Below are positions 12,745 through 38,039 of a stretch of DNA of 43,355 nucleotides, piece after piece. How positions within the stretch are numbered: position 1 is the first letter of the stretch; each line of letters begins with the position of its first letter. This stretch comes from an uncultured Helicobacter sp. GTDB lineage: Bacteria; Campylobacterota; Campylobacteria; Campylobacterales; Helicobacteraceae. The stretch is taken from positions 1-43,355 of the forward strand of contig CAMWUR010000013.1 of NCBI GenBank assembly GCA_947177485.1, given 5' to 3'. The notes under the pieces were generated by a model that saw only the letters and a program-made list of their open reading frames with translations, made no database searches and had not been told where the DNA came from. The position numbers and the translations under genes are program-made.

Positions 12745-13767
12745 ATGGCACGAGGAATCAGCAAAATATTTGGCATTTTATTGCTATTATTTCTAGGAGG
12801 AACAAGCATGGCAGCAGATAAAAGTTGGGATAAAGTTTTCGCAAAAAGCGAACAGGTTGAGGTGCAGAAAGTGAAGTTTAAAAACCGCTATGGAATCGAG
12901 CTCGTTGGGGATTTGTATCTTCCAAAAAACGCAGGCAAGAATCTCCCCGCAATTGCAGTTGCGGGACCTTTTGGTGCAGTCAAGGAACAGGCGAGCGGAT
13001 TCTATGCCCAAACGCTCGCACAAAAGGGATTCATCACTTTAGCCTTTGACCCGTCCTACACAGGCGAGAGTGGCGGCGAACCCCGCAATGTCGCCTCACC
13101 GGACATCAACACGGAGGACTTTAGCGCAGCAGTGGATTTTTTGAGCAATTATGCAAATGTGGATTCTAAGAGAATTGGAATCTTAGGCATTTGCGGCTTT
13201 GGCGGTTTTGCGCTCAACGCCGCGGCGATGGACACGCGCATTAAGGCTGTCGTAACCTCAACAATGTATGATATGACGCGCGTAAGTGCGAAAGGATACA
13301 ACGACACGATGGACGCAAAGGCGCGTTATCAACTCAAAGAATCCCTAAACAATCAGCGCACAGAGGATTTTAAAAAGAGCACATTTGCAAAAGCGGCAGG
13401 CTTGCCCGAAAAACTTAGCGGCGATGAGCCATTGTTTATCAAGGAATATTTTGATTATTACAAAACACCGCGCGGATTCCACGCGCGCGCGATTAATTCC
13501 AATGGTGCATGGAATCTCACTTCGTCTTTGTCGCTCATAAATATGCCCATTTTGGCATATAGCGATGAAATCCAAAGCGCGGTTTTAGTGATTCACGGCG
13601 ATAAGGCGCATAGTCGCTATTTTAGCGAAGACGCATTCAAGAAGCTCAAAGGCAAGAACAAGGAATTGCTGATTATCAAAGACGCAAACCATGTGGATTT
13701 GTATGATAATGCGCAGAAGATTCCGTTTGAAAAGCTCGCGCAGTTTTTTGGTGAGAATCTGAAATAA
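12745..13767 (+). CDS. Exported alpha/beta hydrolase of the dienelactone-hydrolase type
   Basis: The 340-residue product starts at an ATG with TAAGGAGG upstream. Residues 1-24 are a Sec signal peptide (hydrophobic ILLLLFLGG, cleavage near SMAA). The nucleophile turn GICGFGG has Cys150, as in dienelactone hydrolases, and the late NHVDLYD supplies the likely catalytic His. The substrate is unknown; related YcjY/DLH-like proteins hydrolyse esters. A second in-frame start at 12808 could make a leaderless form. Residues 40-110 resemble the N-terminal half of the chimeric gene at 37251. It is in an operon with the alcohol dehydrogenase. Confidence 0.82.
   Translation: MARGISKIFGILLLLFLGGTSMAADKSWDKVFAKSEQVEVQKVKFKNRYGIELVGDLYLPKNAGKNLPAIAVAGPFGAVKEQASGFYAQTLAQKGFITLAFDPSYTGESGGEPRNVASPDINTEDFSAAVDFLSNYANVDSKRIGILGICGFGGFALNAAAMDTRIKAVVTSTMYDMTRVSAKGYNDTMDAKARYQLKESLNNQRTEDFKKSTFAKAAGLPEKLSGDEPLFIKEYFDYYKTPRGFHARAINSNGAWNLTSSLSLINMPILAYSDEIQSAVLVIHGDKAHSRYFSEDAFKKLKGKNKELLIIKDANHVDLYDNAQKIPFEKLAQFFGENLK
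12794..12810 (+). promoter_or_regulatory. Internal ribosome site and ATG at the signal-peptide boundary (hydrolase)
   Basis: TAGGAGG followed by seven bases and ATG (12808) lies in frame at codon 22, right at the expected signal-peptidase site. Translation from here would give a cytosolic enzyme. Confidence 0.6.
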
Positions 13768-13772
13768 AACAG

Positions 13773-13816
13773 CTAAGGCTTTATTTATGCTTATTTTTGC
13801 TATAATAAAGCCTTAG
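13773..13816. promoter_or_regulatory. 13-bp perfect inverted repeat overlapping an extended -10 element
   Basis: CTAAGGCTTTATT (13773-13785) and its exact complement (13804-13816) flank an 18-base loop. The right arm overlaps TGCTATAAT (13798-13806), an extended -10 promoter pointing at the restriction gene. The structure may act as an operator for the restriction-modification set, as a terminator for the upstream hydrolase operon, or as both. It also marks the edge where base composition becomes AT-rich. Confidence 0.6.
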
Positions 13817-13833
13817 TTAAAAAAGGATAAAGT

Positions 13834-15279
13834 TTGAATCTATGGATATTGACGGAAGAACGACCCAAAAATGAGGTTCTAGAATTTATTATCAAACGAT
13901 TCGTATGCGATTCTCAAATATGCGTTTTTATAGATAATTTAAGAATATTACCTATTGTAGAAAATGGTATTTTTAGTTTTTGTTATGAAATTATTGGTAT
14001 TAGAAGCAATCAAATTGCAAAAATATATCTTGAAATTATTAGTGGAGAAAGTAGTTTTGTAGATTATATGGTATTCTTTCAGAACCACAAACCTACGCCC
14101 CATGATATTCCTCGTTATCTCATTGAAGAAACTAAGACAGATGATAGCGAAAGTCGAAACACGGGTGTGTATCAAAGAATTACAAAATTTGTTTATGCAG
14201 ATTATTTTTATCCAAAATCCCAAAAAATTATGCTTTACAACCTCAAGGTAGCTCAAAAAATAAAGCCCACGCAAACGTCAATATTTGGAACAAGGATTCT
14301 AAGAACTCTGGGTGTTGAAGTTGCAGGTAAAGAGTTTCAAAGAGACGATGAGATTTTAAAGCCTTTTAGTGATATTGATGAGTTAATTGCATTTAAGTCT
14401 CAAATGCGGAAAGCACCTGCAGGAAATGTACCTATTAAAATTGAAATATGCGACAGCAAATTAGAAGTTGATAAACTTCCAGATGATTTATCAGTCTATA
14501 CTCCACCAAATAAAATTCTCATTTCAGCACGACTTGAAAAAAACAACAGACTTGCACATGACCCAAATATTGGAGCAGTTAGTGGAATCGCCGCCACATT
14601 AAGAAAACTTGGCTTTAATGGACAAATAGAGATTATTTCACATGGACTAAAGCAGCAACAAATAGGCAATAAAAATAAATTTTTACAAATTGCTAATCTG
14701 CTTGACATTTCCCTACAGGGACTTCAGATTCCAAAAGTCGAGCTACCAGATGAATATTGGCACTACGAAAAAGAAAGCGAAAAACTTGCAACCATATTCG
14801 TTCATCTATTAATTAAAAACTTTTCATGTGGTAAATCAATTTTTGAAAATCATGCAGGATGTGAAAAGGGGTATTTTATCACTAGCAATAATGAATATAT
14901 TCCATTGCAAAAATATGAAAATAGAGAAAGCTATAAAAATGGAAATAGAAACGCAATTGTATTTATTCCAGATTTAATTTTACTTGACCCTAAAAACTTA
15001 GAAATTATCAATATTGAGGGCAAGACTTATGATAATAGACATAAGGGGATTGAGGAGTTAAAAAATTATAATTTCATAGAAAATTTGTATATCAAAAAAT
15101 ATTATCCATCTTATAAAATCATACGTTCTGTTGTTCTATATGGTGGACATGAAAACAAAATTATAGAGATTGAAGTCGGCTTTTTACTTAATGCTGACGG
15201 TGACATGATTTTGGGCATAAAAGCACCAAAAATCTTTATAGATTCTCTTACAAATCTACTTGATTTTTGGAGAAAATAA
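13834..15279 (+). CDS. Putative type II restriction endonuclease
   Basis: The 481-residue protein has no family I can name with certainty. It starts at TTG with AAAGG seven bases upstream. A PD-(D/E)xK nuclease motif is visible: P379-D380, then E395-G-K397 (PDLILLDP and NIEGK). It is followed without a gap by two adenine methylase genes, the classic context of a type II enzyme with an asymmetric site. The stop overlaps the start of the first methylase by one base. Codon use is AT-rich compared with the core genes to the left, which suggests acquisition by transfer. The recognition sequence cannot be told. Confidence 0.72.
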   Translation: MNLWILTEERPKNEVLEFIIKRFVCDSQICVFIDNLRILPIVENGIFSFCYEIIGIRSNQIAKIYLEIISGESSFVDYMVFFQNHKPTPHDIPRYLIEETKTDDSESRNTGVYQRITKFVYADYFYPKSQKIMLYNLKVAQKIKPTQTSIFGTRILRTLGVEVAGKEFQRDDEILKPFSDIDELIAFKSQMRKAPAGNVPIKIEICDSKLEVDKLPDDLSVYTPPNKILISARLEKNNRLAHDPNIGAVSGIAATLRKLGFNGQIEIISHGLKQQQIGNKNKFLQIANLLDISLQGLQIPKVELPDEYWHYEKESEKLATIFVHLLIKNFSCGKSIFENHAGCEKGYFITSNNEYIPLQKYENRESYKNGNRNAIVFIPDLILLDPKNLEIINIEGKTYDNRHKGIEELKNYNFIENLYIKKYYPSYKIIRSVVLYGGHENKIIEIEVGFLLNADGDMILGIKAPKIFIDSLTNLLDFWRK

Positions 15280-16226
15280 TGACTCAATTATTAATGCAAA
15301 AAACAACTTTTCTTAAATCACCACTCAACTACATCGGCGGGAAATATAAAATACTCTCTCAAATATTGCCACTATTCCCAAAACAAAATGATATTTTTGT
15401 GGATTTATTCTGTGGGGGCTGCAATGTAGGAATGAATATTGGACAAGATTCCATTATCCAAGCAAGTCATATTATTTGCAATGATAATCTTATTTATCTC
15501 ATTGAGTTATACAGATTTTTGCAGGAGAATCAAGCAGATACAATATTAAATGAAATCCGAAATATTATTCTCAAGTATGATTTGAATCTACAAAATACAC
15601 AAGGCTACAACAATTTACGCAACGCATACAATATCAAAAAGTCCCCCATGTTGCTCTTTGTTCTTATTGCCTTCTCATTTAATCATCAGATTCGCTTTAA
15701 TAATCGCCATTGCTTCAATAACCCTTTTGGAAAAAATCGTTCAAGCTTTAATTCTGCAATGCGAGAAAATCTCTTGCAATTTCTCGATGCAATTCAGAAT
15801 AAACCCATACAATTTTTAAGCCTAGATTTCAAAGAAGCATTGGATTCTGCCTCGCTGACAAAGCAAAGCTTTGTCTATGCTGACCCGCCTTATCTTATCA
15901 CACAAGGAACATACAATGATGGCAAAAGAGGTTTTAGTGGATGGAATGAAAAACTAGAAAAAACACTTTTGGAATCGTTGAAATTTTTAGATTCTCAAGG
16001 CATAAAATTTGCGCTTTCTAATGTTCTCACGCATAAAGGTATCCATAATGAAATTTTAGATAAATGGATAAGAGCCAACGGATATATTGTCCATACAATC
16101 CATACTCACTATACAAATTCAAATTATCAAGCAAAATATAGAGACAAATCTCAAACTGTGGAAGTTCTTGTTACTAATTATCAACCCTTAATTACTAGGG
16201 AGGACACAAATGCGTTTTATTGGTAA
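15279..16226 (+). CDS. D12-class (Dam-type) N6-adenine DNA methyltransferase 1
   Basis: The enzyme transfers a methyl group from S-adenosylmethionine to adenine in DNA. The ATG at 15279 has GGAG six bases upstream; the earlier in-frame TTG at 15267 is less likely. The 315 residues carry the D12 signatures SPLNYIGGKYK near residue 14, FVDLFCGG (SAM binding, about 40-47) and ADPPYL near residue 202. It sits between the restriction gene and a second D12 methylase that overlaps its end by 17 bases. Two methylases of one class beside one nuclease suggest that each modifies one strand of a non-palindromic site. Confidence 0.9.
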   Translation: MTQLLMQKTTFLKSPLNYIGGKYKILSQILPLFPKQNDIFVDLFCGGCNVGMNIGQDSIIQASHIICNDNLIYLIELYRFLQENQADTILNEIRNIILKYDLNLQNTQGYNNLRNAYNIKKSPMLLFVLIAFSFNHQIRFNNRHCFNNPFGKNRSSFNSAMRENLLQFLDAIQNKPIQFLSLDFKEALDSASLTKQSFVYADPPYLITQGTYNDGKRGFSGWNEKLEKTLLESLKFLDSQGIKFALSNVLTHKGIHNEILDKWIRANGYIVHTIHTHYTNSNYQAKYRDKSQTVEVLVTNYQPLITREDTNAFYW

Positions 16227-17319
16227 CAAAGAATCCTTAGCACCCAAGATTTATCAAATAATCAAACAATACTGCATTGTAGATTCTCCAAACATTCGAA
16301 GTGTTTGTGATATGTTTTCTGGAAGTGTAAGCGTGGGAAAATTCTTTAAAAATCAAGGCTTTAGCATTTATAGCTGCGATATGCTTTATTTTTCCTATTG
16401 TTTGCAAAAAGCATATATAGAAAACAATCAAGTGCCTCTATTCAATAATCTAAAAAATACTTTGGGCATACAACAGATTAATAAAATAAATTCTCTTTTT
16501 GAAAATGAACAAAATCCTTACCAAATAGTGCTACATTTTCTCAATTCCTTAAGTGGCATTAAGGGTTTCATCTACCAAAACTATGCTCCGAATGGGAGCA
16601 AAGATTTAGCACAGCCTAGAATGTATTTTAGTGATGAGAACGCACAAAAAATTGATGCCATTAGAATGCAGATTGAAATATGGAAGGAACAGGGGCTCAT
16701 AAATGACAATGAATATTTTATTCTCCTTGCTACGCTTATAGAATCTGTTTCATTTTTTGCAAATGTTGCTGGCGTGTATGCAGCATTTTGCAAACATTGG
16801 GACAAACGGGCATTGAAACCTTTTATGCTTAAAAAAATAGAATTGATATGCAGCGATAAAACACATTTTTGCTTTTATGGAAATAGTACAGAAATTTTTA
16901 GTAATACAAATAAACATTTTGATATTCTATATCTCGACCCACCCTACAATCACAGACAATATGCTCCTAATTATCATTTGATTGAAACGATTGCTAGATA
17001 TGATAATCCACAAATCAAAGGTGTAGCTGGTTTGCGAGAATGGAAAAATCAAAAAAGTGCCTTTTGTAACGCAAAAAGTGCGCTTATGGAGCTAGAAAGC
17101 ATTGCAAAATATCAGAATTATCGCAATCTTGTTTTGAGCTACAATAGCGAAGGAATTATGAAAAAAGTAGAAATAGATGAAGTTTTAAGACCATTAGGTC
17201 AAGTTTATTTTGAAAAAATCCCATATCCTCGTTTTAAAAGCAATAGAAATGAGAGCAAGAAACATATAGAAGAATATGTGTGGATTCTAGAAAACAAAAA
17301 CACGAAGGAGTCAAAATGA
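16210..17319 (+). CDS. D12-class N6-adenine DNA methyltransferase 2
   Basis: The 369-residue protein starts at an ATG with AGGGAGG upstream. It has RFIGNKESLAPKI at the N-terminus, a SAM-binding DMFSGSVSVG near residue 36 and the catalytic LDPPYNHRQY near residue 242. It overlaps methylase 1 by 17 bases, and its own stop overlaps the start of the exported flavodoxin-fold gene by four bases, so the whole run is translationally linked. It likely protects the second strand of an asymmetric recognition site. Confidence 0.9.
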   Translation: MRFIGNKESLAPKIYQIIKQYCIVDSPNIRSVCDMFSGSVSVGKFFKNQGFSIYSCDMLYFSYCLQKAYIENNQVPLFNNLKNTLGIQQINKINSLFENEQNPYQIVLHFLNSLSGIKGFIYQNYAPNGSKDLAQPRMYFSDENAQKIDAIRMQIEIWKEQGLINDNEYFILLATLIESVSFFANVAGVYAAFCKHWDKRALKPFMLKKIELICSDKTHFCFYGNSTEIFSNTNKHFDILYLDPPYNHRQYAPNYHLIETIARYDNPQIKGVAGLREWKNQKSAFCNAKSALMELESIAKYQNYRNLVLSYNSEGIMKKVEIDEVLRPLGQVYFEKIPYPRFKSNRNESKKHIEEYVWILENKNTKESK

Positions 17320-17879: not shown

Positions 17880-17893
17880 AATAAGGAGAATAC

Positions 17894-18376: not shown

Positions 18377-18401
18377 TGAAAATTGATAAAAGGAATAAAT
18401 G

Positions 18402-18823
18402 ATGGCTTGGACAATTATAGAAGTCTCGAAACAAACAGGAATTTCGCCACACACCCTAAGATTTTGGGCGAAAAAGGGAGTGTTTGAAACTGTGATAGAT
18501 AGAGATGAAAATGGCGTAAAATACTTTAATAAAAAAGCAGTCGAATGGGTGATGTGGGTCAATTATCTAAGAAATACGGGAATGAGTCTCAAAGACATCA
18601 AAAGATATGCGATTCTATTCACACAAGGAATGAAAACGGCACATGAGCGACGGGAAATGCTTGCAAAACAAGCGCAGTCTCTTAAAAATCAACTTGCAAT
18701 AATCCATGAAACTATACAGATACTAGAAAAGAAAATTAGCATCTATGATGAAATGATAGCAACAGGTGTTGATTTATTTCATTCTTGCGATATGAAGAAT
18801 TGCACAAACACAAAGGAGAAAAA

Positions 18824-18827
<4 letters not shown>
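18402..18827 (+). CDS. MerR-family transcriptional regulator
   Basis: The 141-residue protein has the MerR winged helix-turn-helix at residues 2-70 (WTIIEVSKQTGISPHTLRFW) and a dimerisation coiled coil at about 75-125. The short tail holds two Cys (HSCDMKNC), which may sense a metal or an electrophile. AAAGGA lies seven bases before the ATG at 18402; an ATG immediately before it is also possible. The stop overlaps the start of the first aldo/keto reductase by four bases. It likely controls this redox operon and perhaps the 19-bp-spacer promoter at 11383. Confidence 0.9.
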
Positions 18828-19963
<1,136 letters not shown>

Positions 19964-19983: not shown

Positions 19984-21105
19984 ATGAAAAATCACACCAC
20001 CAATCGCCGCGAGTTTTTGAAAGTTGCGGCAATACTAGGGGCAAGTTTGAGTTTAGGTGCTTCGCCACTTTTGGCAGCAGATTCTAAAAAGCAAATCATG
20101 CCAATGCGCACTTTGGGTAAAGGCGACTATGCCTTTGAGGTTTCTGCTCTTGCATTTGGACTGATGGGCTTGAATTATCACCGCAGCAAGGTGTTGAGCG
20201 AAAAAGAAGCAGCAGAGATTGTTGCAAAATGTGTGGATTATGGAATCATACTTTTTGACACAGCACAAGTTTATGGACCAGATAGTAATGAAATCTTGAC
20301 AGGCAAGATTCTAAAGCCCTATAAAGACAAGGTTTTTGTAACAACAAAATTTGGGTTTGGGGCAAATGCTGATATTTTGGATTCCTCACCAAAACGTATC
20401 CGAGAAGTTTGCGAACAGAGCCTAAAAAGGCTCAATATCGAGCAGATTCCGCTTTTTTATCAACATCGTTTCGACCCCCAAACACCGATTGAAGAAGTTG
20501 CGGGAACGGTCAAAGATTTGATAAAAGAAGGCAAAGTCGCTCGGTTTGGTGTATGCGAATTAAGCGCAGCAACGATAGAAAAGGCGCACAAAATCTGCCC
20601 GATTACAGCTGTGCAGAGTGAGTATCATTTGATGTGGCGCAATGTTGAAATAGAACTTTTCCCAACATTAGAAAAGCTTGGAATCGGCTTTGTGGCATAT
20701 TCACCTTTGGCACGAGGATATTTAAGTGGAAAGTTACGAAAAAATAGCGATTTTGACCCAAAAAATGATAATCGCGCAACCTTTCCACGTTACCAAGATG
20801 ACACAATGGCAGCAAATTATAAGATTGTCGAACTTCTAAGAGAATTTGGTAAAGGCAAAAATCCTTCCGCTCAAAATGGCAATGCAACCCCTGCTCAAAT
20901 GGCAATTTCCTATCTTTTAGCGAAAAAGCCCTATGTCGTGCCACTTTTTGGCACGACAAATCTAACACATTTAAGTGAAAACATTGAATCATTGCAGGTT
21001 CAATGGCACAAAAAAGAGCTGAAAAATTTTGAAGCAGAGCTTGCAAAAATACAGATTCTTGGCGACCGCTACCCACCAGAGCAGGCAAAGCGCGTGGGGC
21101 GATAG
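19984..21105 (+). CDS. Aldo/keto reductase with Tat leader (second)
   Basis: The 373-residue protein begins with NRREFLKVA and a hydrophobic stretch ending LLAADS, a clear Tat signal. The catalytic residues are in LFDTAQVYGP, TTKFGF and YQHRFD. It is a diverged paralogue of the preceding gene (shared layout from leader to C-terminus). Unlike that gene, no ribosome site lies between leader and barrel, so only the exported form is expected. CAAGGAGAAACA precedes the ATG. It is the last gene of the redox run before the type I restriction locus. Confidence 0.9.
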   Translation: MKNHTTNRREFLKVAAILGASLSLGASPLLAADSKKQIMPMRTLGKGDYAFEVSALAFGLMGLNYHRSKVLSEKEAAEIVAKCVDYGIILFDTAQVYGPDSNEILTGKILKPYKDKVFVTTKFGFGANADILDSSPKRIREVCEQSLKRLNIEQIPLFYQHRFDPQTPIEEVAGTVKDLIKEGKVARFGVCELSAATIEKAHKICPITAVQSEYHLMWRNVEIELFPTLEKLGIGFVAYSPLARGYLSGKLRKNSDFDPKNDNRATFPRYQDDTMAANYKIVELLREFGKGKNPSAQNGNATPAQMAISYLLAKKPYVVPLFGTTNLTHLSENIESLQVQWHKKELKNFEAELAKIQILGDRYPPEQAKRVGR

Positions 21106-23714: not shown

Positions 23715-24099
23715 CAAACACACGATTGAAGCAAAGATTTGCATTTTTTCAAAGAGCCTTTTTGAATCTCAATGAAGTCAAGGAGCAAGAAAATCGAGCT
23801 TTTTCAAACCTCGAAAAAGAGGGCATTATCCAAAGATTTAAGGTGCTCATAGAACTTTGTTGGAAAATGCTCAAAGATTTCCTAGAAAACGAGGGCTTTA
23901 TGGTTAAAAGCCCAAAAGAAAGCGTCCGCAAGGCTTTTGAATATGGACTCTTAAAAAATTGCTAGAGGCACTAGACATGCGAAATATCACAAGCCATACC
24001 TACACACAAAGCGCGCTTGATGAGAATGTGCGCTATATTTTAGAGGATTTTTATCCGCTCGTGCGGGATTTATACGATACCCTTAAGGCTCGCCTATGA
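23711..24099 (+). pseudogene. HEPN-type nucleotidyltransferase partner (HI0074 family), frameshifted
   Basis: The first frame gives 84 residues (ending YGLLKNC) and stops at 23965. The other frame continues with the missing family C-terminus: LLEALDMRNITSHTY and then DFYPLVRDLYDTLKARL, ending at 24099. RNxTSHTY is the conserved HEPN Rx4-6H-type motif. Adding one A to the six-A tract near 23947 would restore a full protein of about 129 residues. The downstream nucleotidyltransferase start overlaps the restored stop, as in intact pairs. The break may be a true mutation, a phase switch or a sequencing slip. Confidence 0.75.
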
Positions 24100-25241
24100 A
24101 TTGCGGACTTTCAAAAAGGCATTTGATGACAATCCAAGAGATTCTAACGCCACATCAGGCAATCACGCATGCCATTTTGTTTGGCTCACGCGCAAGAGGG
24201 ACATTCAAACCAACGAGCGATGTGGATATTACCCTAAAAGGCGACATTGACATTAGGCTCATTGCCAAAATCAAAGCAGAATTTGAGGATTCTAACCTCC
24301 CTTTTTTCGTGGATATTGTGGATTATGCTAAGGCAGATAATGCACTTAAAAGCGAGATTGATGCGCAGGGTGTTTTGCTTTATGTAAAAGATATTTCGCA
24401 TTTTTCAAATACCCGTGCAATCCGCAAGGATTTCACCCTCATTAGCAAAGATGACAAAAGTTCTCCTTGTCATTCTGAGCGAAGCGAAGAATCTAATAGA
24501 GATATTTCGCTTGTTTCACAAGCTCAATATGACAAAGCTAGCTTAACTTGTCATTCTGACCTTGAGTGCAACGAAAGGGAAGAATCTCAATACATTCCTA
24601 TCGCCTTGACCCAAAATCAAATCGCATTTTCGAAATATCCAGCCTTTATTTATATGGTGAGCAACAAAAACAACACAACCCTTTATATCGGCGTTACAAG
24701 CAATTTACAAAAACGCATTTATGAACATAAAAATCATTTAACAAAAGGCTTTAGTGATAAATATAATTGTGAAAAACTTGTATATTTTGAAAGCTTTGAT
24801 AACATTAATCAAGCCATTGAGAGAGAAAAATATCTTAAGGGCAAAAAGCGAGAATTTAAGGAGAATCTTATTCACTCAATTAATCCAAAATGGCTTGACT
24901 TATATGATTATTTGTTTAGAGATACTTCAGCTTTGCTTCAGTATGACAATACCCCTTGTCATTCTGAACCTGCTTTAGCAGGTGAAGAATCTAATCCCTC
25001 TTGTGATACTAAGCCTTTAGGCGAAGTATCTTACAAATCCAACAGAGATATTTCGCATTTTTCAAATGCTCAATATGACAAAATGACCTCAACTCGTCAT
25101 TCTGAGGCTTTAGCCGAAGAATCTCAAAAATCCGATTGTCATTCTAAAACCCCATCTTGTCATTCTGAGCGAAGCGAAGAATCTAATAGAGATATTTCGC
25201 TTGTTTCACAAGCTCAATATGACAACAAAGGCAGAAAATGA
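24096..25241 (+). CDS. MNT nucleotidyltransferase domain fused to a GIY-YIG nuclease domain through repeat-encoded linkers
   Basis: The 381-residue frame has four parts. Residues 15-98 are a minimal nucleotidyltransferase with FGSRARG, the DVD metal pair and a third acidic strand (FFVDIVDY); such proteins pair with HEPN partners as toxin-antitoxin systems, and some AMPylate the partner. Residues 99-170 are repeat-derived (CHSERSEESNRDIS). Residues 184-270 are a GIY-YIG nuclease (FIYMVSN, LYIGVTSNLQKRIYEH, IEREKYLKG). Residues 285-381 are again repeats. Normal MNT proteins end near residue 98, so a repeat seems to have removed the stop and joined two genes. An ATG at 24126 is an alternative start. 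Confidence 0.75.
   Translation: MNCGLSKRHLMTIQEILTPHQAITHAILFGSRARGTFKPTSDVDITLKGDIDIRLIAKIKAEFEDSNLPFFVDIVDYAKADNALKSEIDAQGVLLYVKDISHFSNTRAIRKDFTLISKDDKSSPCHSERSEESNRDISLVSQAQYDKASLTCHSDLECNEREESQYIPIALTQNQIAFSKYPAFIYMVSNKNNTTLYIGVTSNLQKRIYEHKNHLTKGFSDKYNCEKLVYFESFDNINQAIEREKYLKGKKREFKENLIHSINPKWLDLYDYLFRDTSALLQYDNTPCHSEPALAGEESNPSCDTKPLGEVSYKSNRDISHFSNAQYDKMTSTRHSEALAEESQKSDCHSKTPSCHSERSEESNRDISLVSQAQYDNKGRK
24468..24534 (+). repeat. Full copy of the 67-bp TGTCATTCTGA repeat (copy A)
   Basis: The element runs from TGTCATTCTGAG to CTCAATATGACA. Its ends are imperfect inverted repeats, and it contains GAAGAATC, GATATTTCGC and an inner TTGTTTCACAAG hairpin. It is identical over all 67 bases to copy B at 25158-25224. 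Confidence 0.85.
24549..24590 (+). repeat. Left half of a TGTCATTCTGA repeat
   Basis: TGTCATTCTGACCTTGAGT and then GAAGAATCTC. It has a different inner hairpin from copies A and B and is read in frame as CHSDLECNEREES. Confidence 0.6.
24919..25080 (+). repeat. Composite of TGTCATTCTGA-family repeat parts
   Basis: A right-half piece ending CAGTATGACAA is followed at 24957 by a left half with the hairpin CCTGCTTTAGCAGG. A TGTGATACT/GAAGTATC variant comes next, and then a right half ending CTCAATATGACA. The reading frame stays open throughout. Confidence 0.65.
25097..25224 (+). repeat. TGTCATTCTGA repeats including full copy B
   Basis: A left half with hairpin GGCTTTAGCC is followed by a short TGTCATTCTAAA piece and then the full 67-bp copy B (25158-25224). 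Copy B is identical to copy A some 690 bases upstream, which suggests recent duplication or gene conversion. Confidence 0.75.
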
Positions 25242-25270
25242 ATAAAAACATTATAGCCAAAGGGGCGACA

Positions 25271-26701
25271 ATGGGCATAACAACGCACAGCCACAAAGAA
25301 CACGCGACTGCAATTGTGCCATTTCATTCTCATTTCTTTGAATCGCTTCATAAAGAGCAATGGCAAGAGGTCAGGTTGGGGGAAGTGGCGGAGATAAAAA
25401 CAGATATTTGGAAAGTAGGAGGAGAACAACAGAAACAATATATAGGGCTTGAACACATTGCAGCAGATTCTTTAAGATTGTGCGGCATCGGAAATTCTAA
25501 TGAAATTAGCAGTAACAAATATATTTTTAAAGAAAATGATATTCTTTTTGGGAAATTGAGACCTTATTTTAGAAAAATTATTAAAGCTAAATTTAAAGGT
25601 ATTTGTTCCACTGATATTTGGGTTATTAGAGCAAAACAAAATATAGACCAAACATTTTTATTTTATTTTTTTGCGAATAAAACTTTGATAAATTTGTCAT
25701 ATTCTAGTTCTAAGGGAACAAGAATGCCCCGAGCAGATTGGAATTTTCTATCACAAACAACTTGGTTACTCCCGCCCCTCGAGACACAGCGTAAAATCGC
25801 GGAGATTCTAAGTAGTTTGGACGATAAGATAGATTTGCTTCATCGCCAAAACAAAACCCTAGAATCCCTCGCCCTCACTCTCTTTCGCCATACCTTTATA
25901 GACAATCCCAAAAATCCCAATGCCCCTTGTCATGCTGGGCAAGCTTGCAATTGTCATTCTGAACCTGCTTTAGCAGGTGAAGAATCTATTGATATAAAAT
26001 CGCATAGAGATATTTCGGCTTTGCCTCAATATGACAAAGAAAAGTTTCTAGTTGTAGAAAAAAACACACCTCCAAATAATGAGCAACATAACCGAGGCGC
26101 GACTTCAGTCGCACATAATGAACATTGGGAAATAGGAAAATTGGGGGATTATGGAAAAATAATTTGTGGTAAAACCCCAACAAAAATTCAAAAAGAATAT
26201 TTTAATGGCAAAATACCATTTATTAAAATTCCTGATATGCACAATAAAACTTTCGTTTTTAAAACAGCTGATACTCTTACACAGAAAGGTTTTTCGTCTC
26301 AACACACAAAAACATTGCCACCTTTAAGTATTTGCGTAAGCTGCATTGCTACCGTTGGCGTAGTTTCTATGAATGCTTTAGAATCTCAAACAAATCAACA
26401 AATAAATTCTATTGTTCCACACAAAGAATATTTTAGATATTTTTTATACTGCTTTATGAAAGAATCTTTTGATGAATTGCAAGCTATGGCAAGTGGCGGA
26501 ACAGCAACAGCTAATCTGAATACAACAGATTTCTCAAATATGGCAATTCTAAAACCTACTGATAAAGAATTGCAAGATTTTCATTCTTGCGTAAAGATTT
26601 ATTTTGATAAAATCTACAATAATGCTAAGCAGATTCAGAATCTGCAATCAATGCGGGATATGCTCTTAGCAAAAATTCTAAATGAAAAAATGGAGGTGTG
26701 A
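25271..26701 (+). CDS. hsdS: Type I restriction-modification specificity subunit
   Basis: HsdS sets the DNA target of the type I complex. I chose ATG 25271 (476 residues), since AAAGGGG lies just upstream; ATG 25238 is possible. The first target-recognition domain spans about residues 28-175, followed by LPPLETQRKIAEILSSLDDKI, the conserved helical spacer. The second recognition domain covers about 290-440, with the end helix LLAKILNEKMEV. The linker (residues 220-283) is made of two different dispersed repeats, giving CHSEPALAGEES and then NRGATSVAHNE. The second domain is AT-rich. The stop precedes the reverse transcriptase start by five bases. Confidence 0.92.
   Translation: MGITTHSHKEHATAIVPFHSHFFESLHKEQWQEVRLGEVAEIKTDIWKVGGEQQKQYIGLEHIAADSLRLCGIGNSNEISSNKYIFKENDILFGKLRPYFRKIIKAKFKGICSTDIWVIRAKQNIDQTFLFYFFANKTLINLSYSSSKGTRMPRADWNFLSQTTWLLPPLETQRKIAEILSSLDDKIDLLHRQNKTLESLALTLFRHTFIDNPKNPNAPCHAGQACNCHSEPALAGEESIDIKSHRDISALPQYDKEKFLVVEKNTPPNNEQHNRGATSVAHNEHWEIGKLGDYGKIICGKTPTKIQKEYFNGKIPFIKIPDMHNKTFVFKTADTLTQKGFSSQHTKTLPPLSICVSCIATVGVVSMNALESQTNQQINSIVPHKEYFRYFLYCFMKESFDELQAMASGGTATANLNTTDFSNMAILKPTDKELQDFHSCVKIYFDKIYNNAKQIQNLQSMRDMLLAKILNEKMEV
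25928..26036 (+). repeat. TGTCATTCTGA-family repeats in the hsdS linker
   Basis: A short TGTCATGCTGG variant is followed at 25952 by a full-length copy with hairpin CCTGCTTTAGCAGG and right end CTCAATATGACA. They are read in frame between the two recognition domains of HsdS. Confidence 0.75.
26093..26114 (+). repeat. REP palindrome in the hsdS linker
   Basis: CGAG followed by GCGCGACT and AGTCGCAC. It differs at three positions from the GGAG-headed REP copies near the RAYT gene. A half copy (CACCTCC) lies about 20 bases upstream in opposite orientation. It is read in frame as RGATSVAH. Confidence 0.65.
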
Positions 26702-32534: not shown

Positions 32535-32556
32535 TTGAACACACAAGGAGACAAAT

Positions 32557-33204: not shown

Positions 33205-33212
33205 TCTTTAAC

Positions 33213-34097
33213 TTATGCATTGCCATTTTGTAAGCGTTTTAGAATCTTGGCGTACGTTTTTGCCCCTGCGCGGTAGGGCAAGCTTGAAAAATCTTGCTTG
33301 AAACGAGAGCGCATTATTTTTTGCGCGATTTTGGCAAAAAACCTTTCAAGATACTTGCGCGTTTTCTTCGCCTGTTTCTTGCCCCCAAGCCGATAGCAGG
33401 CATAGAGTTTTTGTATCTCTTTTGGCGCAAGGAATCGGGGCAAGAATTTATGTTCTTTGCCAAGCGAAAAAGAAAAATTATTTTGTTTTATTGCCACATA
33501 CCACGAAAGCAGAATCAAGAGCCCCTCTCTCATCATCGCAAGATGTGCATTGGCAAGCAAAACTTCGGAACGCAAAATATCCTTTAGGGTACAAACATAC
33601 AACCAATAAAATTCATTGCAACAATCTAAAAAACTCTGTTTGCTTAAGGGCTTGATATAAAAAGCGCAATCGCTTGCGGGAAGTACGCTATCAAACCGAT
33701 GGTCTTTATCAAGTAAAACGTGCATGAGACGTTCATTATTTTTATAAAACTCTGCGTCTTCAAGCGGAATGAGCGTTAAATCTATCCGCACGCCATCATC
33801 AAAAAGCATGAGATAACTAAACCAACCCTCTTTTAAATCTGGTGGGTAGAGCTCCATTGATTCTGGTTTTTGAATCATCAATAGATTGCCAAAGACTTTT
33901 AGCCATTCATCGTTTGTATCATCTTTAAAATTCTGCAAACTTTGCTTGTCTAAGAAAAACGAAATATCATAATCGCAAAATATATCTTTTTTGATATTCG
34001 GATTTGCCCTTGAGCCTTCAAGTGTTACAAGACGAATCGATTCATTATTCTTCGCAAAATCTAGGATTAGACTAAAAACTTCTTGTTCTGTGCGCAT
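33213..34097 (-). CDS. Aminoglycoside 6-adenylyltransferase-like protein
   Basis: The 294-residue protein has the streptomycin adenylyltransferase layout. The nucleotidyltransferase core is LEGSRAN followed by CDYDISFF (the Asp pair) and VRIDLTLIP. The length matches AadE/ANT(6) proteins (about 285-300). Family members inactivate streptomycin with ATP. Activity in this organism is inferred, not shown. GGGGA precedes the ATG. It is encoded convergently with the acetyltransferase. Confidence 0.85.
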   Translation of the reverse strand: MRTEQEVFSLILDFAKNNESIRLVTLEGSRANPNIKKDIFCDYDISFFLDKQSLQNFKDDTNDEWLKVFGNLLMIQKPESMELYPPDLKEGWFSYLMLFDDGVRIDLTLIPLEDAEFYKNNERLMHVLLDKDHRFDSVLPASDCAFYIKPLSKQSFLDCCNEFYWLYVCTLKDILRSEVLLANAHLAMMREGLLILLSWYVAIKQNNFSFSLGKEHKFLPRFLAPKEIQKLYACYRLGGKKQAKKTRKYLERFFAKIAQKIMRSRFKQDFSSLPYRAGAKTYAKILKRLQNGNA

Positions 34098-34151
34098 GCA
34101 TTCTTCCCCTTTGTTTGACCAATATTTTGCATTGACTTCTCCTCACATAAT

Positions 34152-34736
34152 TTAAGCATTAAAATATTTTGCCTTAGCACTGATGTGTTCAAGTTTGATA
34201 GCATAAACATTTAAATGCTTGCGCGACATATCCACCGACATTTGCACAAAATCCAATTTATCGGGCATATATTTTTGACAAAGCAACATCATCGCCCTAT
34301 CTTGAGATTCTTTATCACGCAATGCAAAGATTCGCCCATACGCAATCGCGCTTTCATACCCTGTCGTAAAAACATGGCTGCCAAGTTTTTTGGGCTCGGT
34401 TTGTGCAAGTTGCTCTAACTCTTCGCGATTATAAAGCTCGGGTACTTGCACGTGCCCGACAAAGACTAAGCAGACGAGCGAGCCATCATTTAAAAAGCTC
34501 ATCTTACGTCCTGCCTTTGCTGTGTGGATAAAAATTTGATGATTATCATAGACAAATGACACAGGAATGCTAAAGATTTGATAGTCTTCGGCTAAATGAC
34601 CATTTTCTTTGTATGCCTTTTTGTCTGGCTCAAAACCACAAACACTTGAGGGTGAAACGCTCAAAACGCAATAGGCAGCATTTTGCATGATTTCTATCGC
34701 CTTATGCGAATCTTGCATTTTATCTTTGCGGCGCAT
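34152..34736 (-). CDS. Pyridoxamine-5'-phosphate-oxidase-like flavin protein (Nim-type)
   Basis: The 194-residue protein starts at ATG 34736, chosen because AAGGAG lies just upstream; the TTG at 34742 lies inside that region. AAYCVLSVS, IFIHTAKAGRK and NDGSLVCLVFVG are typical of the split-barrel flavin family that includes 5-nitroimidazole reductases (Nim). HVFTTGYESAIAYGR is a family motif. Nitro reduction is possible but unproven. The upstream region has a 16-bp tandem duplication. Confidence 0.78.
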   Translation of the reverse strand: MRRKDKMQDSHKAIEIMQNAAYCVLSVSPSSVCGFEPDKKAYKENGHLAEDYQIFSIPVSFVYDNHQIFIHTAKAGRKMSFLNDGSLVCLVFVGHVQVPELYNREELEQLAQTEPKKLGSHVFTTGYESAIAYGRIFALRDKESQDRAMMLLCQKYMPDKLDFVQMSVDMSRKHLNVYAIKLEHISAKAKYFNA

Positions 34737-34747
34737 ACCCAACTCCT

Positions 34748-34779
34748 TAAAAAGAATATAGCCTAAAAAGAATATAGCC
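34748..34779. repeat. 16-bp tandem duplication upstream of the Nim-like gene
   Basis: TAAAAAGAATATAGCC occurs twice in a row with no mismatch. On the minus strand each copy has GCTATATTC, a -10-like hexamer, right before the ribosome site. Copy-number change could alter expression. Confidence 0.65.
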
Positions 34780-34846
34780 TAAATAGACTTAAAAATCTAT
34801 AAATTTTTACATATTCTAGCCCTAACCACAAAATTGCACCAACCCC

Positions 34847-34877
34847 TTGACAAACACCAAGTGTCAGGGCTTATAAT
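34847..34877 (+). promoter_or_regulatory. MerR-type promoter, 19-bp spacer, before the second merR gene
   Basis: TTGACA (34847-34852) and TATAAT (34872-34877) are 19 bases apart. The spacer has the dyad ACAC-CAA-GTGT. The same block TTGACAAACAC with a mirror GTGT is found at 36122. This supports autoregulation by the MerR protein encoded 80 bases downstream. Confidence 0.75.
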
Positions 34878-34956
34878 ATGCCCTGTGGTTTGTCAGCGCC
34901 CAAAAATTCGTGGGGGCGGCGATAAAACTGCGCATACACAACACAAAGGTGGCACG

Positions 34957-35421
34957 ATGACATACACGATTATCGAGGTGGAACGCAAAAGTGGCATTCC
35001 CTCGCGCAAAATACGTTTTTGGCTCGACAAGGGGCTGTTCCCGCATATCTACAAAGACAAAAATGGCGTGCGGCTTTTTAGCGCGCAAGATGTCGATTGG
35101 CTCTGTTGGATTGAACTCTATCGCCAGCTTGGAATGAGCATCAAAGACATTGCACATTACAGAAACCTCGCCGACAAGGGCGATTCAACGCTGCAAGAAC
35201 GGCTTGGGATTATCCAAAGCCAAAAGGCGCAGAATCTCGCCGAGATTGCGAAGCTACAAGAGGCAATTGCGATGCTTGAATATAAAGAAAATCTTTATAT
35301 TGAGCTCATCACAAACGGGAGTGCGAACTACAAACCGCGCAGTTTTGGCGAATGCAAGAAGATTCTGCAACAGCAATGCCAAACCAAAAGGAAGCAAAAA
35401 GGAGACAACAATGCAAAATGA
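34957..35421 (+). CDS. MerR-family transcriptional regulator (second)
   Basis: The 154-residue protein starts at ATG 34957 with AAAGGTGG upstream. The winged helix (YTIIEVERKSGIPSRKIRFW, then NGVRLFSAQDVDWLCWI) and a coiled coil at about 85-125 are clear. It is a paralogue of the regulator at 18402. Its last 11 bases overlap the next gene. The 19-bp-spacer promoters at 34847 and 36122 are its likely targets. Confidence 0.9.
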   Translation: MTYTIIEVERKSGIPSRKIRFWLDKGLFPHIYKDKNGVRLFSAQDVDWLCWIELYRQLGMSIKDIAHYRNLADKGDSTLQERLGIIQSQKAQNLAEIAKLQEAIAMLEYKENLYIELITNGSANYKPRSFGECKKILQQQCQTKRKQKGDNNAK

Positions 35422-35929
35422 AGCCTGCGACAACAAGAGACGCGAGGTGTTGCGCGAAGCGCTCGCGCTCGCTTTGGGCTCTAGCGCGTTTGGCACGCTG
35501 GACGCGCACGAGCAAAAACAAATATCAAATAAAGGAGAGACAATGACACGATTTGACAGAGGGCTTGCACAGCTTCAAGCGATTGACGGCGAAGCGGGGC
35601 AAAAGGTCATCGACAGCCTCGCGAATATCGCGCCCGATTTGGGCAGGTTCATCATCGAGTTTGCGTTTGGCGACATCTACACGCGCGGCGAGCTGAACCT
35701 CCAAGAGCGTGAGCTCATCACGCTTTCGAGCCTGCTCACTGCGGGCGGTTGCGAACCGCAGCTCGAGGTGCATATCAATGCGGCACTCAATGTCGGAATC
35801 GCGCCCGAGAAGGTCATCGAAACCTTTGTGCAGTGCATTCCCTACATCGGATTCCCGCGAGTGCTCAACGCGGTTTTTGTTGCCAAAAAAGTTTTTGGAG
35901 AGAAAAATTTAGGCATTAACAAAGCTTAA
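35411..35929 (+). CDS. Carboxymuconolactone-decarboxylase-family protein with Tat-like leader
   Basis: The 172-residue protein starts at ATG 35411 with AAAGGAGA upstream. KRREVLREALALALGSSAFG is a weak Tat-type leader. The CMD/AhpD-like domain has LQERELITLSSLLTAGG and LEVHINAALNVGIAPEKVIE, but no CxxC pair, so it is closer to the gamma-carboxymuconolactone decarboxylase branch than to peroxidase AhpD. A second in-frame ATG at 35543 with its own ribosome site marks the natural domain start. It is in one transcript with the upstream MerR gene. Confidence 0.82.
   Translation: MQNEACDNKRREVLREALALALGSSAFGTLDAHEQKQISNKGETMTRFDRGLAQLQAIDGEAGQKVIDSLANIAPDLGRFIIEFAFGDIYTRGELNLQERELITLSSLLTAGGCEPQLEVHINAALNVGIAPEKVIETFVQCIPYIGFPRVLNAVFVAKKVFGEKNLGINKA
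35531..35545 (+). promoter_or_regulatory. Internal ribosome site and ATG after the leader (CMD-like gene)
   Basis: AAAGGAGA, five bases after GGAG, then ATG in frame at codon 45. The product from here starts MTRFDRGLAQLQ, as cytosolic CMD-like proteins do. Confidence 0.65.
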
Positions 35930-35955
35930 GTTTGTCATTTAAAGGAATTTTATGA

Positions 35956-36135
35956 ACAAATGACTCAATCTATCACGTAGTCCCTTTTTCGCCTTTTGGG
36001 CAAGGGCTTTTGGCAGGGAAATTTGATAAAATGACTTTTGCGAGCGATGATTTTCGCGGCACGGTGCCGCGATTCCAAAAGGGAAATTTGCAGGCAAACA
36101 TGGTTTGCTCGAGTTTTCCCCTTGACAAACACTAG
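35956..36135 (+). pseudogene. Remnant of a third aldo/keto reductase
   Basis: A 59-codon frame without a start codon reads VPFSPFGQGLLAGKFDK, then FASDDFRGTVPRF and NLQANM. This matches the conserved AKR segment (VPYSPLxxGxLxGK ... RxxxPRF) seen also in the two intact paralogues near 20700 and 19560. No other part of that gene remains. It ends inside the next promoter. A small palindrome (CGCGGCAC/GTGCCGCG, around 36055-36071) lies within it. Confidence 0.7.
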
Positions 36136-36152
36136 GTGTTATGCTTTATCAT
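36122..36152 (+). promoter_or_regulatory. MerR-type promoter, 19-bp spacer, before aldo/keto reductase 3
   Basis: TTGACA (36122-36127) and TATCAT (36147-36152) are 19 bases apart, with the perfect dyad AACAC-TAG-GTGTT in the spacer. It shares TTGACAAACAC with the promoter at 34847, so one MerR protein probably controls both. Confidence 0.75.
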
Positions 36153-36179
36153 GCTCATATCTTGAATCAAAGGAGAACA

Positions 36180-37241
36180 ATGGACAAACAAAGACGCAAA
36201 CTCTTGCAAAGCAGCGCAGTATTAGGCATTGCAAGTAGCATGATGGGTTTATCGGGGGCTTTGGGATTGCAAGGTTGCGATTCGAACCAAAGCAAAAATG
36301 CCGCCCAAAATTGGGGCACACAGGGCGCAGCAGCGGGCACTAGCGGCGCAGATTCAACACAACACACAAAAGGAGACACAATGGAATTTATCACTTTAAA
36401 CAATGGCGTAAAAATGCCTATCTTAGGCTATGGAGTATTTCAAGTAGAACCCAAAGAAACGCAAAGATGCGTAGAGGACGCAATCAGCGTGGGATACCGC
36501 AGCATCGACACAGCGCAGGCGTATTTCAACGAAGAGGGGGTGGGCGCGGCGGTTAAAACTGCCCTCAATGGCGGGCTAAAGCGCGAGGAGTTTTTCATTA
36601 CAACAAAGCTGTGGATTAACAATTATCCCGAAGAAAAGGCACTCAAGGCGTGTGAGGAATCTTTGCGCAAACTAGGCTTAGATTATGTGGATTTAATGCT
36701 GCTTCATCAGCCCTTTAATGACACTTATGGTGCGTGGAGAGCGTTAAGCAGATTCTATAAAGAGGGGAGATTCAAAGCCATTGGTGTGAGTAATTTTTAC
36801 CCCGATAGAATCGCGGATTTTTGTTTGAATAACGAAGTCAAGCCCGCGCTCAATCAAATAGAATGCAACCCGCTCCACGCGCAATTTGAAGCGCAAAAAG
36901 TCTTGCAAGAATATGGTGTGGCTATGGAATCGTGGGCACCTTTTGGCGAGGGCAAGAACAATATGTTTAGCAATCCCACATTAAGCGAGATTGGCAAAAA
37001 ATATAATAAAAGTGTGGCACAAGTCATTTTGCGTTGGCAGATTCAAAGAGGGATTATCGCGATTCCAAAGACGACAAATAAAGAGCGAATGATTGAAAAT
37101 ATCAGCGTGTTTGACTTTAACTTAAGTGAGCAAGATATGCAAACCATTGCGGGGCTTGATAATAAACAAAGCTTGTTTTTGAATCATCAAGACCCCCAAA
37201 CCGCAAAATTTTTGATTGAGATTCATAAAGAGAAATTTTAA
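36180..37241 (+). CDS. Aldo/keto reductase, AKR5-like, with Tat lipoprotein leader
   Basis: ATG 36180 has AAAGGAGA upstream and gives 353 residues. QRRKLLQSS plus a hydrophobic stretch ending LQGC is a Tat leader with a lipobox, so the exported form may be lipid-anchored at the periplasmic side. A Ser/Ala/Gly-rich spacer precedes the barrel. The barrel has SIDTAQAYFNE (Asp, Tyr), TTKLWI (Lys) and LLHQPF (His), as in 2,5-diketogluconate reductase-like AKR5 enzymes. A second ribosome site and ATG at 36381 (codon 68) starts the barrel exactly. The chimeric gene follows 9 bases later. Confidence 0.9.
   Translation: MDKQRRKLLQSSAVLGIASSMMGLSGALGLQGCDSNQSKNAAQNWGTQGAAAGTSGADSTQHTKGDTMEFITLNNGVKMPILGYGVFQVEPKETQRCVEDAISVGYRSIDTAQAYFNEEGVGAAVKTALNGGLKREEFFITTKLWINNYPEEKALKACEESLRKLGLDYVDLMLLHQPFNDTYGAWRALSRFYKEGRFKAIGVSNFYPDRIADFCLNNEVKPALNQIECNPLHAQFEAQKVLQEYGVAMESWAPFGEGKNNMFSNPTLSEIGKKYNKSVAQVILRWQIQRGIIAIPKTTNKERMIENISVFDFNLSEQDMQTIAGLDNKQSLFLNHQDPQTAKFLIEIHKEKF
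36368..36383 (+). promoter_or_regulatory. Internal ribosome site and ATG after the Tat lipoprotein leader (aldo/keto reductase 3)
   Basis: AAAAGGAGA, then ATG in frame at codon 68. Translation from here gives MEFITLNNGVKMPILG, the usual start of a cytosolic AKR5 protein. Confidence 0.7.
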
Positions 37242-37250
37242 GGAGCATAA

Positions 37251-38039
37251 ATGCAAAAAAGTATTGTATGTGGCATTGTTTTGGCACTAAGCCTACAAAC
37301 ATTCACATTCGCACAAGGAGGAGTCATGCAAGCAAATATCACAAATCCTAGCAAAGAGGCAAAGACAAATGCGCTCAAGAATCCTTTTGGTTTGGTCTAT
37401 GAGAGCGCAATTGCTAAAAACGAAAAAGGTAAAGTCAATATCAAAAGCATAACTTACACAAGCAGAGGGCTAAAAATCGCCGCAAATCTCTACTTGCCAA
37501 GTGATTTTGACCTTAAGGCAAAGATTGCAGCTATCATCGTAGCCCACCCCAATGGAGGTGTAAAAGAGCAAGTCGCGGGGCTATACGCGCAAAAGTTAGC
37601 AGAATCTGGCTACATCACCCTAGCCTTTGACGCGGCGTATCAAGGCGCAAGTGAGGGATTGCTCCTTGATGTAAGTGAATATGGAATCCATACGATTAAT
37701 GTAATGCCAGCAGGATTCCGCACGGAGTTTTTGGGCACAAGTATGGTTAAAAGTGCAATGCAAGTCTCTACCTATGACGCAAGGCGCAAAGCATTTTTGG
37801 ATAGAAGCGCAAATTATAGCGGCAAACAAGCGGGCAATCCGCAGAAGTTTGCGGAGATTCTCCATGAAGTCTCACGCAATCCAAAGCCACCCTTTAGTCT
37901 TTTTATGGGCGAAGCGGCATTTACAAGCGCAAACAATAAGATAAAATGGGTAAGTGAGGACATCAAAGCCACAGAATCTTATGCAGGGAAAGCAGCAGAC
38001 TTTAGCGATTCTGCAGGAAGCGCGTTTGATAAGAGATAG
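37251..38039 (+). CDS. Chimera of an exported hydrolase N-terminus and a short-chain dehydrogenase C-terminus
   Basis: AAGGAG precedes the ATG; the frame has 262 residues. Residues 1-22 are a Sec signal peptide. Residues 63-130 match the first half of the hydrolase at 12745 (GVKEQVAGLYAQKLAESGYITLAFD against AVKEQASGFYAQTLAQKGFITLAFD). From about residue 135 on the text changes to an SDR C-terminus: EYGIHTINVMPAGFRTEF and then NPQKFAEILHEV and the PPFSLFMGEAAF stretch. The hydrolase nucleophile and the SDR Rossmann half are both missing, so neither activity is expected. A deletion between two former neighbours is the simplest origin. An internal ATG at 37326 has its own ribosome site. Confidence 0.75.
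   Translation: MQKSIVCGIVLALSLQTFTFAQGGVMQANITNPSKEAKTNALKNPFGLVYESAIAKNEKGKVNIKSITYTSRGLKIAANLYLPSDFDLKAKIAAIIVAHPNGGVKEQVAGLYAQKLAESGYITLAFDAAYQGASEGLLLDVSEYGIHTINVMPAGFRTEFLGTSMVKSAMQVSTYDARRKAFLDRSANYSGKQAGNPQKFAEILHEVSRNPKPPFSLFMGEAAFTSANNKIKWVSEDIKATESYAGKAADFSDSAGSAFDKR
37315..37328 (+). promoter_or_regulatory. Internal ribosome site and ATG after the signal peptide (chimeric gene)
   Basis: AAGGAGGAGTC then ATG (37326), in frame at codon 26, just after the expected signal-peptidase site. Confidence 0.6.

Follow-up and report, generated by a model that had tools for sequence, protein, structure and literature searches.

Genes and putative paired translation starts of the window

The stretch analysed here ("the window") comprises 43,355 nucleotides of an uncultured Helicobacter sp. 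(contig CAMWUR010000013.1, positions 1 to 43,355 of the forward strand) and contains a group of enzyme genes whose products carry predicted export leaders; five of these genes have two in-frame starts, each with its own Shine-Dalgarno (SD) sequence. The five (Table 1) encode an alpha/beta hydrolase, two aldo/keto reductases (AKR1 and AKR3), a carboxymuconolactone-decarboxylase-like (CMD) protein and a chimeric product, and the Pfam families found in the genes of the window are Aldo_ket_red, CMD, ADH (alcohol dehydrogenase), Flavodoxin_2, alpha/beta-hydrolase-type and MerR. Leaders were recognised by a hydrophobicity score and by eye. An earlier, sequence-only reading of the window had reported five in-frame inner ATGs behind AGGAG-type sites, and all five are where it placed them, each behind a 6-7 base SD match. 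The SD matches of the outer starts are 6-8 bases long, and only in the hydrolase is the inner match the shorter of the two (inner 6, outer 8). The spacings between inner SD and ATG, measured from the position that corresponds to the last base of AGGAGG, are 7, 7, 4, 4 and 4 bases in the hydrolase, AKR1, CMD, AKR3 and chimera genes, respectively.

An RR motif or a hydrophobic stretch precedes each inner Met, so that the long form has an export signal and the short form has none. The same reading put all five inner sites at the border between leader and enzyme domain; this is correct for the others, but in the hydrolase the inner ATG lies inside the leader. The short forms of AKR1 and AKR3 align with their best-matching solved enzymes from residues 1-10 onward, and by this alignment each is predicted to be a complete enzyme. 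The inner site was not found in three further exported enzymes of the window, namely the ADH (11442), a flavodoxin-fold protein (17316) and the aldo/keto reductase AKR2 (19984). Dual starts are therefore not universal for such enzymes, and the share among the exported window enzymes is 5/8 (the eight selected by eye).

The chimera had been listed as an exported enzyme like the others; it is a fusion of two partial genes. Its residues 1-141 match a 366-residue hydrolase of another genome (L257 of G023; 73%), its residues 134-262 match the C-terminal part of a short-chain dehydrogenase/reductase (SDR; 78%), and both halves have a longer relative in another genome. No Pfam family was found in it, and its short form, unlike those of AKR1 and AKR3, does not correspond to a complete enzyme.

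Rarity of the inner sites

Open reading frames (ORFs) were called in the window together with 20 further stretches of its genome (443,130 bases, 407 ORFs), two of which, on contigs C32 and C41, were picked for their homologues and the other 18 were not. Only 7 of 628 in-frame ATGs at codons 12-90 have an SD match of at least 6 bases: the five window sites, an exported AKR on C32, and the true AKR3 start, which was counted as an inner one because the script began AKR3 at 36141. At codons 15-110 and the same threshold the window has 5/55 and the 20 other stretches 2/707, and stretches of two relatives have none (0/319 in G110, 0/321 in G095). Pooled, the comparison stretches (800 kb) have such a match at 2 of 1,347 early in-frame ATGs, one in the exported AKR on C32 and the other at the end of an ORF that we take to be HypA-like. 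The earlier judgement that five such sites are unlikely by chance is borne out by this contrast. Counted per gene, the site is present in 5/8 exported window enzymes against 2/294 comparison-stretch ORFs whose N-terminus is hydrophobic (Fisher p 5.7e-8), where the eight were chosen by eye and the loose hydrophobicity rule used for the other ORFs gives 5/23 for the window.

The genome has 13 matches to TIGR01409 (Tat signal), 11 of them above the family cut-off. The inner site was not found behind four Tat leaders of respiratory- or transport-looking (by eye) proteins (L147, L148, L149 and L155). On C32, the AKR with a Tat leader has it and an NmrA-like gene (L158) has a weaker one, and a double-CMD gene with a Tat-like leader has an inner AAGGAG-ATG at C32:22154, outside the counted stretch; the start-caller can miss outer starts with a weak SD, such as that of this last leader. 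We note that the genome thus has, on C32 (L145, L158, L125, L126), another cluster of genes for exported enzymes, with the inner motif AAGGAG in its AKR and double-CMD genes, AAGGA in the NmrA-like gene and AGGAG in a gene for a Sec-leader protein (L126 501-950, reverse strand reading).

Recurrence in relatives

Twenty stretches of 14 relatives have an SD match of at least 6 bases at 46 of 619 early in-frame ATGs, which is not a genome rate, as these cluster stretches were selected for homology; all 46 lie at the leader/enzyme border (by eye), and the inner site is present in 45 of the 191 ORFs with a hydrophobic N-terminus there. The dual-start enzymes span several unrelated families and stand behind Tat, lipoprotein-like and Sec leaders; by Pfam, the cluster stretches also include SDR, double-CMD, cupin, flavodoxin-fold and NAD(P)-binding proteins. 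Across all loci examined there are 83 distinct dual-start ORFs (55 clusters at 90%, 2 of them doubtful). The rows left out are L015 and L148 (doubtful), L087 (not hydrophobic) and, in the tree, L099 (motif lacking).

Within families the site is kept in most leadered members. It is present in 7/9 leadered AKR1 rows and 5/5 leadered CMD rows (window genes included); the AKR1 exceptions, L003 and L007, lack both Met and SD, and a leaderless CMD relative (L036) begins at the inner-start position. Among 19 leadered AKR3 rows, 13 have AAGGAG and 4 have AAGGA before the Met (SD of at least 5 bases in 17/19), the exceptions being L106 (Met without SD) and L119 (Met lost), and the inner Met is invariant in 19/19 aligned AKR3 proteins, leaderless ones included. 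The hydrolase family, matched in 41 of 121 genomes of the taxonomic family, has an SD of at least 5 bases in 11 of 12 compared rows with a Sec leader, most of which keep GGAGG..ATG; in hydrolase L075 the inner start is the same although the leader is of another, Tat-like type, and L081 and L083-L085 have no border Met. None of four AKR2-like rows reaches an SD of 5 bases. Farther away, cupin-CMD fusions (by eye) of another genus with Sec-like leaders have a second SD and ATG (5 bases in L290, 7 in L291). When 248 genomes of the order were searched for double-CMD genes (27 matched; 13 loci examined, 5 of them outside the family), this gave one dual-start-like gene from another family, L286, which has a weaker form of the second start and an outer start at which no SD was recognised.

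Nucleotide-level constraint on the inner start

Homologues were gathered by homology and not by SD. Of the 192 homologous ORFs obtained, 60 are leaderless or unclear, 107 are leadered with a Met near the border (75 non-redundant) and 25 are leadered without one (25 non-redundant). The 75 rows with a border Met have an SD of at least 6 bases in 54 cases, of 5 in 8 and less in 13 (4 of these AKR2-like), and the 25 rows without the Met have a 6-base motif in one case and a 5-base motif in three (that one included). SD and Met are thus kept or lost together, and the lone Met-less row with a 6-base SD, L257, reads AAGGAGGCAAAAGTG and has a usable GTG start codon after AAGGAGG. Leadered orthologues without the site, which the sequence-only reading had named as evidence that would tell against it, do exist (the 25 without Met plus the 13 with a shorter SD, of 100 rows) and are a minority.

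The peptide sequence does not account for the SD matches. When synonymous codons were drawn for the same peptides from the pooled codon usage of three genomes, 12.7 of the 75 rows were expected to have an SD of at least 6 bases, against the 54 observed (z 13.5, a descriptive value). The linker residues vary (KGDT, QGVN, KGAT, KEVK, GGTS, GGGA) while the SD persists. In the 54 rows it lies in frame as AAG GAG in 6 and as xAA GGA Gxx or equivalents in 47, with one unassigned; a pure protein-level motif was rejected, since the residues vary and the SD is found in two codon phases. Within the genes, pairwise agreement at 4-fold sites is 0.41 in AKR3 (12 genomes), 0.40 in AKR1 (6 rows), 0.39 in the hydrolase (12 rows) and 0.58 in CMD (5 rows), the 12 hydrolase and 12 AKR3 rows having been hand-picked to avoid near-copies. 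Roughly one Gly codon in five is GGA, and yet the linker Gly is GGA in 11/11 AKR3 rows that have one and in 12/12 hydrolase rows, while none of the 9 all-Gly columns of AKR3 and none of the 15 of the hydrolase is single-codon. Nucleotide conservation of the inner start beyond protein constraint is clear in AKR3 and the hydrolase and weaker in AKR1 and CMD. Judged by these codon choices, the inner start is evidently under selection and no recent relic.

The inner sites also resemble real starts in other respects. The register between SD and ATG at inner sites with at least 6 bases is 4 in 34 rows, 7 in 13 and 5 in 7; real starts peak at register 4-5 and seldom have register 7 (5/168), so the register-7 sites, those of the hydrolase and AKR1 included, are less typical. 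Mean folding of the 50 nt around the start is -3.1 kcal/mol for 53 inner starts, -5.0 for 412 real starts and -8.2 for 600 internal ATGs without SD, the weak folding at inner starts being due in part to their lower G+C (0.34 against 0.43). The second codons common at inner starts (CAA, GCA, AAA, AAT) are common after real starts too. A simple search for -10-like hexamers, as signs of a separate promoter inside the leaders, found none in four of the five window leaders and one in the hydrolase leader (12785).

Origin and sharing of leaders

Homologues of AKR3 outside the family have an ATG at about the position of the inner Met in 74 of 77 loci with the motif, and no leader was found (by eye) in the best 80 of at least 586 AKR3 homologues, none of these from a near relative. 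On a 52-row AKR3 tree the leader state needs 7 changes at fewest, of which at least 3 are forced by well-supported branches; one row scored as leaderless (L102) lies 60 nt from a contig end, and its state is probably an artefact. A leadered clade of nine tree rows (support 99) keeps the site throughout, and with L099 added (ten rows) its 4-fold agreement averages 0.52 (range 0.21-0.93). The earlier suggestion that leaders were recently added in front of cytosolic genes is thus supported as to direction for AKR3 but not as to "recently", since the inner SD persists across genera at the low 4-fold agreement of AKR3, AKR1 and the hydrolase given above.

Leaders are also shared between unrelated enzymes. 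In genome G029 the AKR1 and double-CMD leaders have 98.2% DNA identity over 168/168 nt up to the inner ATG, and beyond it the identity is 0.40 over the next 60 nt; a second pair, the AKR3 leader of G119 and an SDR leader of G109, shares 97.6% identity over 165 nt, and here the sequences part 24-30 nt ahead of the ATG. In other shared leaders the match is confined to the first part. In the clearest cases, then, the join lies at the inner start or just upstream of it, which would explain an intact cytosolic start behind a leader. We note that the leaders of L008, L043 and L048 (AKR1 and double-CMD genes, compared within G029 and between it and G113 and G112) share 98-99% of their DNA sequence as far as the inner ATG, which suggests leader copying. 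Contig C41 of the window's own genome has a second copy of the AKR3 leader and inner start before an enzyme stub (G000:C41:3760-3987; L121:961-1224), next to a gene that presumably (by eye) encodes a HAD-like phosphatase.

Interpretation of the paired starts

We consider it likely, from the sequence features described above, that each of these genes has two working starts, one for a long form that is exported and one for a short form that is cytosolic. From the outer ATG, translation would give the long form with its Tat, Tat-lipoprotein-like or Sec leader, which would be exported, and from the inner SD and ATG of the same mRNA it would give an enzyme without a working leader that stays in the cytoplasm; ribosomes would use both sites, both products would be stable and localised as predicted, and both compartments would benefit. 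The leaders would have been placed before originally cytosolic enzymes, in part by copying of leader segments between enzyme genes, the segments being joined on at the inner start or a little ahead of it, and selection would have kept the arrangement since. As a join at or before a start does no harm to the cytosolic product, this first step would be cheap. Of the two possibilities raised by the sequence-only reading, that of two forms for two compartments is the one favoured by the codon constraint, the joint loss of Met and SD, the GTG replacement and the open mRNA structure at the inner starts, and it is in this predictive sense that we adopt it. That the genes form a dual-compartment set across many families, with twin starts, exchangeable leaders and in part MerR-type control, is a wider reading towards which we lean slightly.

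Several points weigh against two working starts. AKR2, the ADH and the flavodoxin-fold protein belong to the same cluster and have no inner site, and 13 of the 75 homologues with a border Met have an SD of less than 5 bases, with 25 more rows without Met. The within-gene control is weaker in AKR1, where 1/15 all-Gly columns is single-codon, namely GGA, and in CMD, where 2/10 are, one of them GGA, in 5 rows of which three are near-alike. The families were seeded from site-bearing genes, which favours presence of the site, and the rows share descent, which makes the z and p values descriptive; the numbers therefore show constraint, not independent events. Cupin-CMD fusions (by eye) are misplaced in both classes (L051 and L055 among the 75, L057 and L059 among the 25), their "border" lying deep inside the protein; these rows were kept, as were L078, L080 and L090 with their sole Met inside the leader, and all are on the side without SD. 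The chimera, despite having kept both starts, is probably not a working enzyme. Finally, AKRs need NAD(P)H, which is scarce in the periplasm, so that the use of the long form is not obvious.

An unlikely alternative is that the inner site is functionless and that the leaders were added too recently for the old ribosome binding site and ATG to have decayed. Outgroup AKR3 homologues are indeed leaderless and begin at the inner Met, the leader state has changed several times on the AKR3 tree, and leaders have been copied between genes, so that some joins must be young. Against this, the nine-row AKR3 clade keeps the site throughout, 4-fold agreement in the wide AKR3, AKR1 and hydrolase sets is 0.39-0.41, and codon choice is far from the peptide-only expectation. 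The motif might instead be a pause signal that holds the ribosome back behind the leader and gives export factors time to act, as its position just after or within the leader and the SD-like pauses reported early in E. coli membrane-protein genes (PMC4359368) would allow. This seems quite unlikely, given that a pause would work without a start codon at the spacing of a real start, and the motif is seldom kept without one; that SD hexamers regardless of ATG are not clearly in excess in ordinary ORFs with a hydrophobic N-terminus (26/294, against 8/118 other ORFs), which argues against a general pause role; and that pauses are reported in the same paper to be apparently depleted among the N-terminal codons of periplasmic proteins.

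The short cytosolic form could also be the main product and the leadered form conditional, for example coupled to an upstream MerR gene: the MerR1 stop overlaps the outer ATG of AKR1, MerR2 overlaps the outer start of CMD, and the inner SD equals or exceeds the outer one in four of the five genes. The outer SDs are strong as well, that of the hydrolase is the longer of its two, and AKR3 has a promoter-like site directly before its outer start, all of which makes this very unlikely. A chance or composition effect, for which one could cite A-rich linkers and K-G-E type peptides able to encode AAGGAG fortuitously, is the least credible alternative and was rejected on the rarity in comparison stretches, the peptide-preserving shuffle and the per-gene comparison.

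Comparison with known systems and significance

Glucose-fructose oxidoreductase is a cofactor-binding enzyme that is exported folded by the Tat system and is similar to the present enzymes in that respect; we know of no second start in its gene.

In-frame pairs of N-terminal proteoforms of which the shorter loses a signal are described in Salmonella for PagC, OmpX, YfhG and SseL (PMC11005335). These are like the present genes in having one gene, two in-frame starts and a shorter form without secretion or lipoprotein signal that is predicted to be elsewhere; they differ in being scattered single genes, outer-membrane proteins included, where ours are unrelated soluble enzymes that are largely clustered, recur across genera and share leaders, and initiation was measured there by ribosome profiling and is deduced here from sequence. 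Campylobacter jejuni has a putative internal LysC start that gives the LysC beta subunit (PMC11955535), likewise an internal in-frame start with a shorter product, but the accessible portion of that source mentions no export leader. The E. coli pause elements (PMC4359368) share with the inner sites an SD-like motif early in the coding sequence that is linked to targeting, but need no start codon, whereas here the motif accompanies an ATG spaced as at a real start. A second start behind the signal is therefore known for single genes of bacteria, and what is new is the scale, the conservation and the modular leaders; no title found in a search of the open-access literature describes this arrangement, and a Helicobacter genome paper (PMC3234257) has no bearing on it.

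If the two-product reading is true, dual localisation is something that bacteria can build into their genes systematically, much like eukaryotic genes that serve both mitochondria and cytosol, annotation of such genes changes to two proteins per gene, the export leaders on NAD(P)H-type enzymes become easier to explain, and a route by which leaders spread between genes is apparent. The neighbours AKR1 (dual) and AKR2 (single) form a ready contrast pair within the window.

MerR regulators and other features

The two MerR-family genes of the window overlap the outer starts of AKR1 and CMD, which would tie these starts to translation of the regulators; this suggests that the outer start may be coupled to regulator translation and the inner one independent of it, in which case the ratio of the two forms could vary. 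A promoter/operator-like pattern, TTGACAAACACYARGTGT..TTATNAT, which has a palindrome and a 19-base spacer and which we take to be of MerR type, stands before MerR2-CMD and AKR3-chimera, and a third copy stands before the C41 leader copy (G000:C41:3700-3730); these are the only three exact occurrences in the genome, against 0 for a reversed-pattern control. The copy before AKR3 would place the outer start of that gene at 36180 rather than 36141. Judged by the MerR genes and the kinds of enzyme present, the cluster may serve to respond to reactive carbonyls or compounds like them.

Table 1. Coordinates of the paired starts, the genes that contain them and neighbouring elements in the window
Feature	Position	Strand	Details
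Hydrolase outer start	12732..12747	+	TAAGGAGG 12732-12739, ATG 12745
Alpha/beta hydrolase, Sec-type leader	12745..13767	+	S15/PETase/DLH-like Pfam matches
Hydrolase inner start, in C-terminal part of leader	12795..12810	+	AGGAGG 12795-12800, ATG 12808
MerR-family regulator 1 (MerR1); stop overlaps AKR1 outer ATG	18399..18827	+	Pfam
AKR1 outer start	18813..18826	+	AAGGAG 18813-18818, ATG 18824
AKR1, Tat-like leader (RREFLK)	18824..19963	+	Pfam; orthologues
AKR1 inner start	18921..18937	+	AAGGAGG 18921-18927, ATG 18935
AKR2, Tat-like leader, Met near border, no inner SD	19984..21105	+	Natural contrast to AKR1
MerR-type promoter/operator-like site before MerR2-CMD	34847..34877	+	
MerR-family regulator 2 (MerR2); end overlaps CMD outer start	34957..35421	+	Pfam
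CMD outer start	35399..35413	+	AAGGAG 35399-35404, ATG 35411
CMD protein, Tat-like leader	35411..35929	+	Pfam
CMD inner start	35532..35545	+	AAGGAG 35532-35537, ATG 35543
MerR-type promoter/operator-like site before AKR3-chimera	36122..36152	+	
AKR3 outer start	36170..36182	+	AAGGAG 36170-36175, ATG 36180
AKR3, Tat-like leader with lipobox-like LQGC (by eye)	36180..37241	+	Pfam
AKR3 inner start	36370..36383	+	AAGGAG 36370-36375, ATG 36381
Chimera outer start	37239..37253	+	TAAGGAG 37239-37245, ATG 37251
Chimera: hydrolase leader and first part joined to SDR C-terminal part	37251..38039	+	
Chimera inner start	37315..37328	+	AAGGAGG 37315-37321, ATG 37326

A different promoter-like site, TTGACT-19-TATAAT, lies before the ADH gene (11383-11413) and resembles the region upstream of the AKR1 orthologues L008 and L009. 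Elsewhere in the window, repeats that encode CHSE.ALAEES / CHSERSEESN peptides are found at 24096-25241, 25238-26701, ~39930-40110 and 43230-43355, in and between restriction-modification-like genes, and apparently represent a dispersed repeat that is read in several genes.

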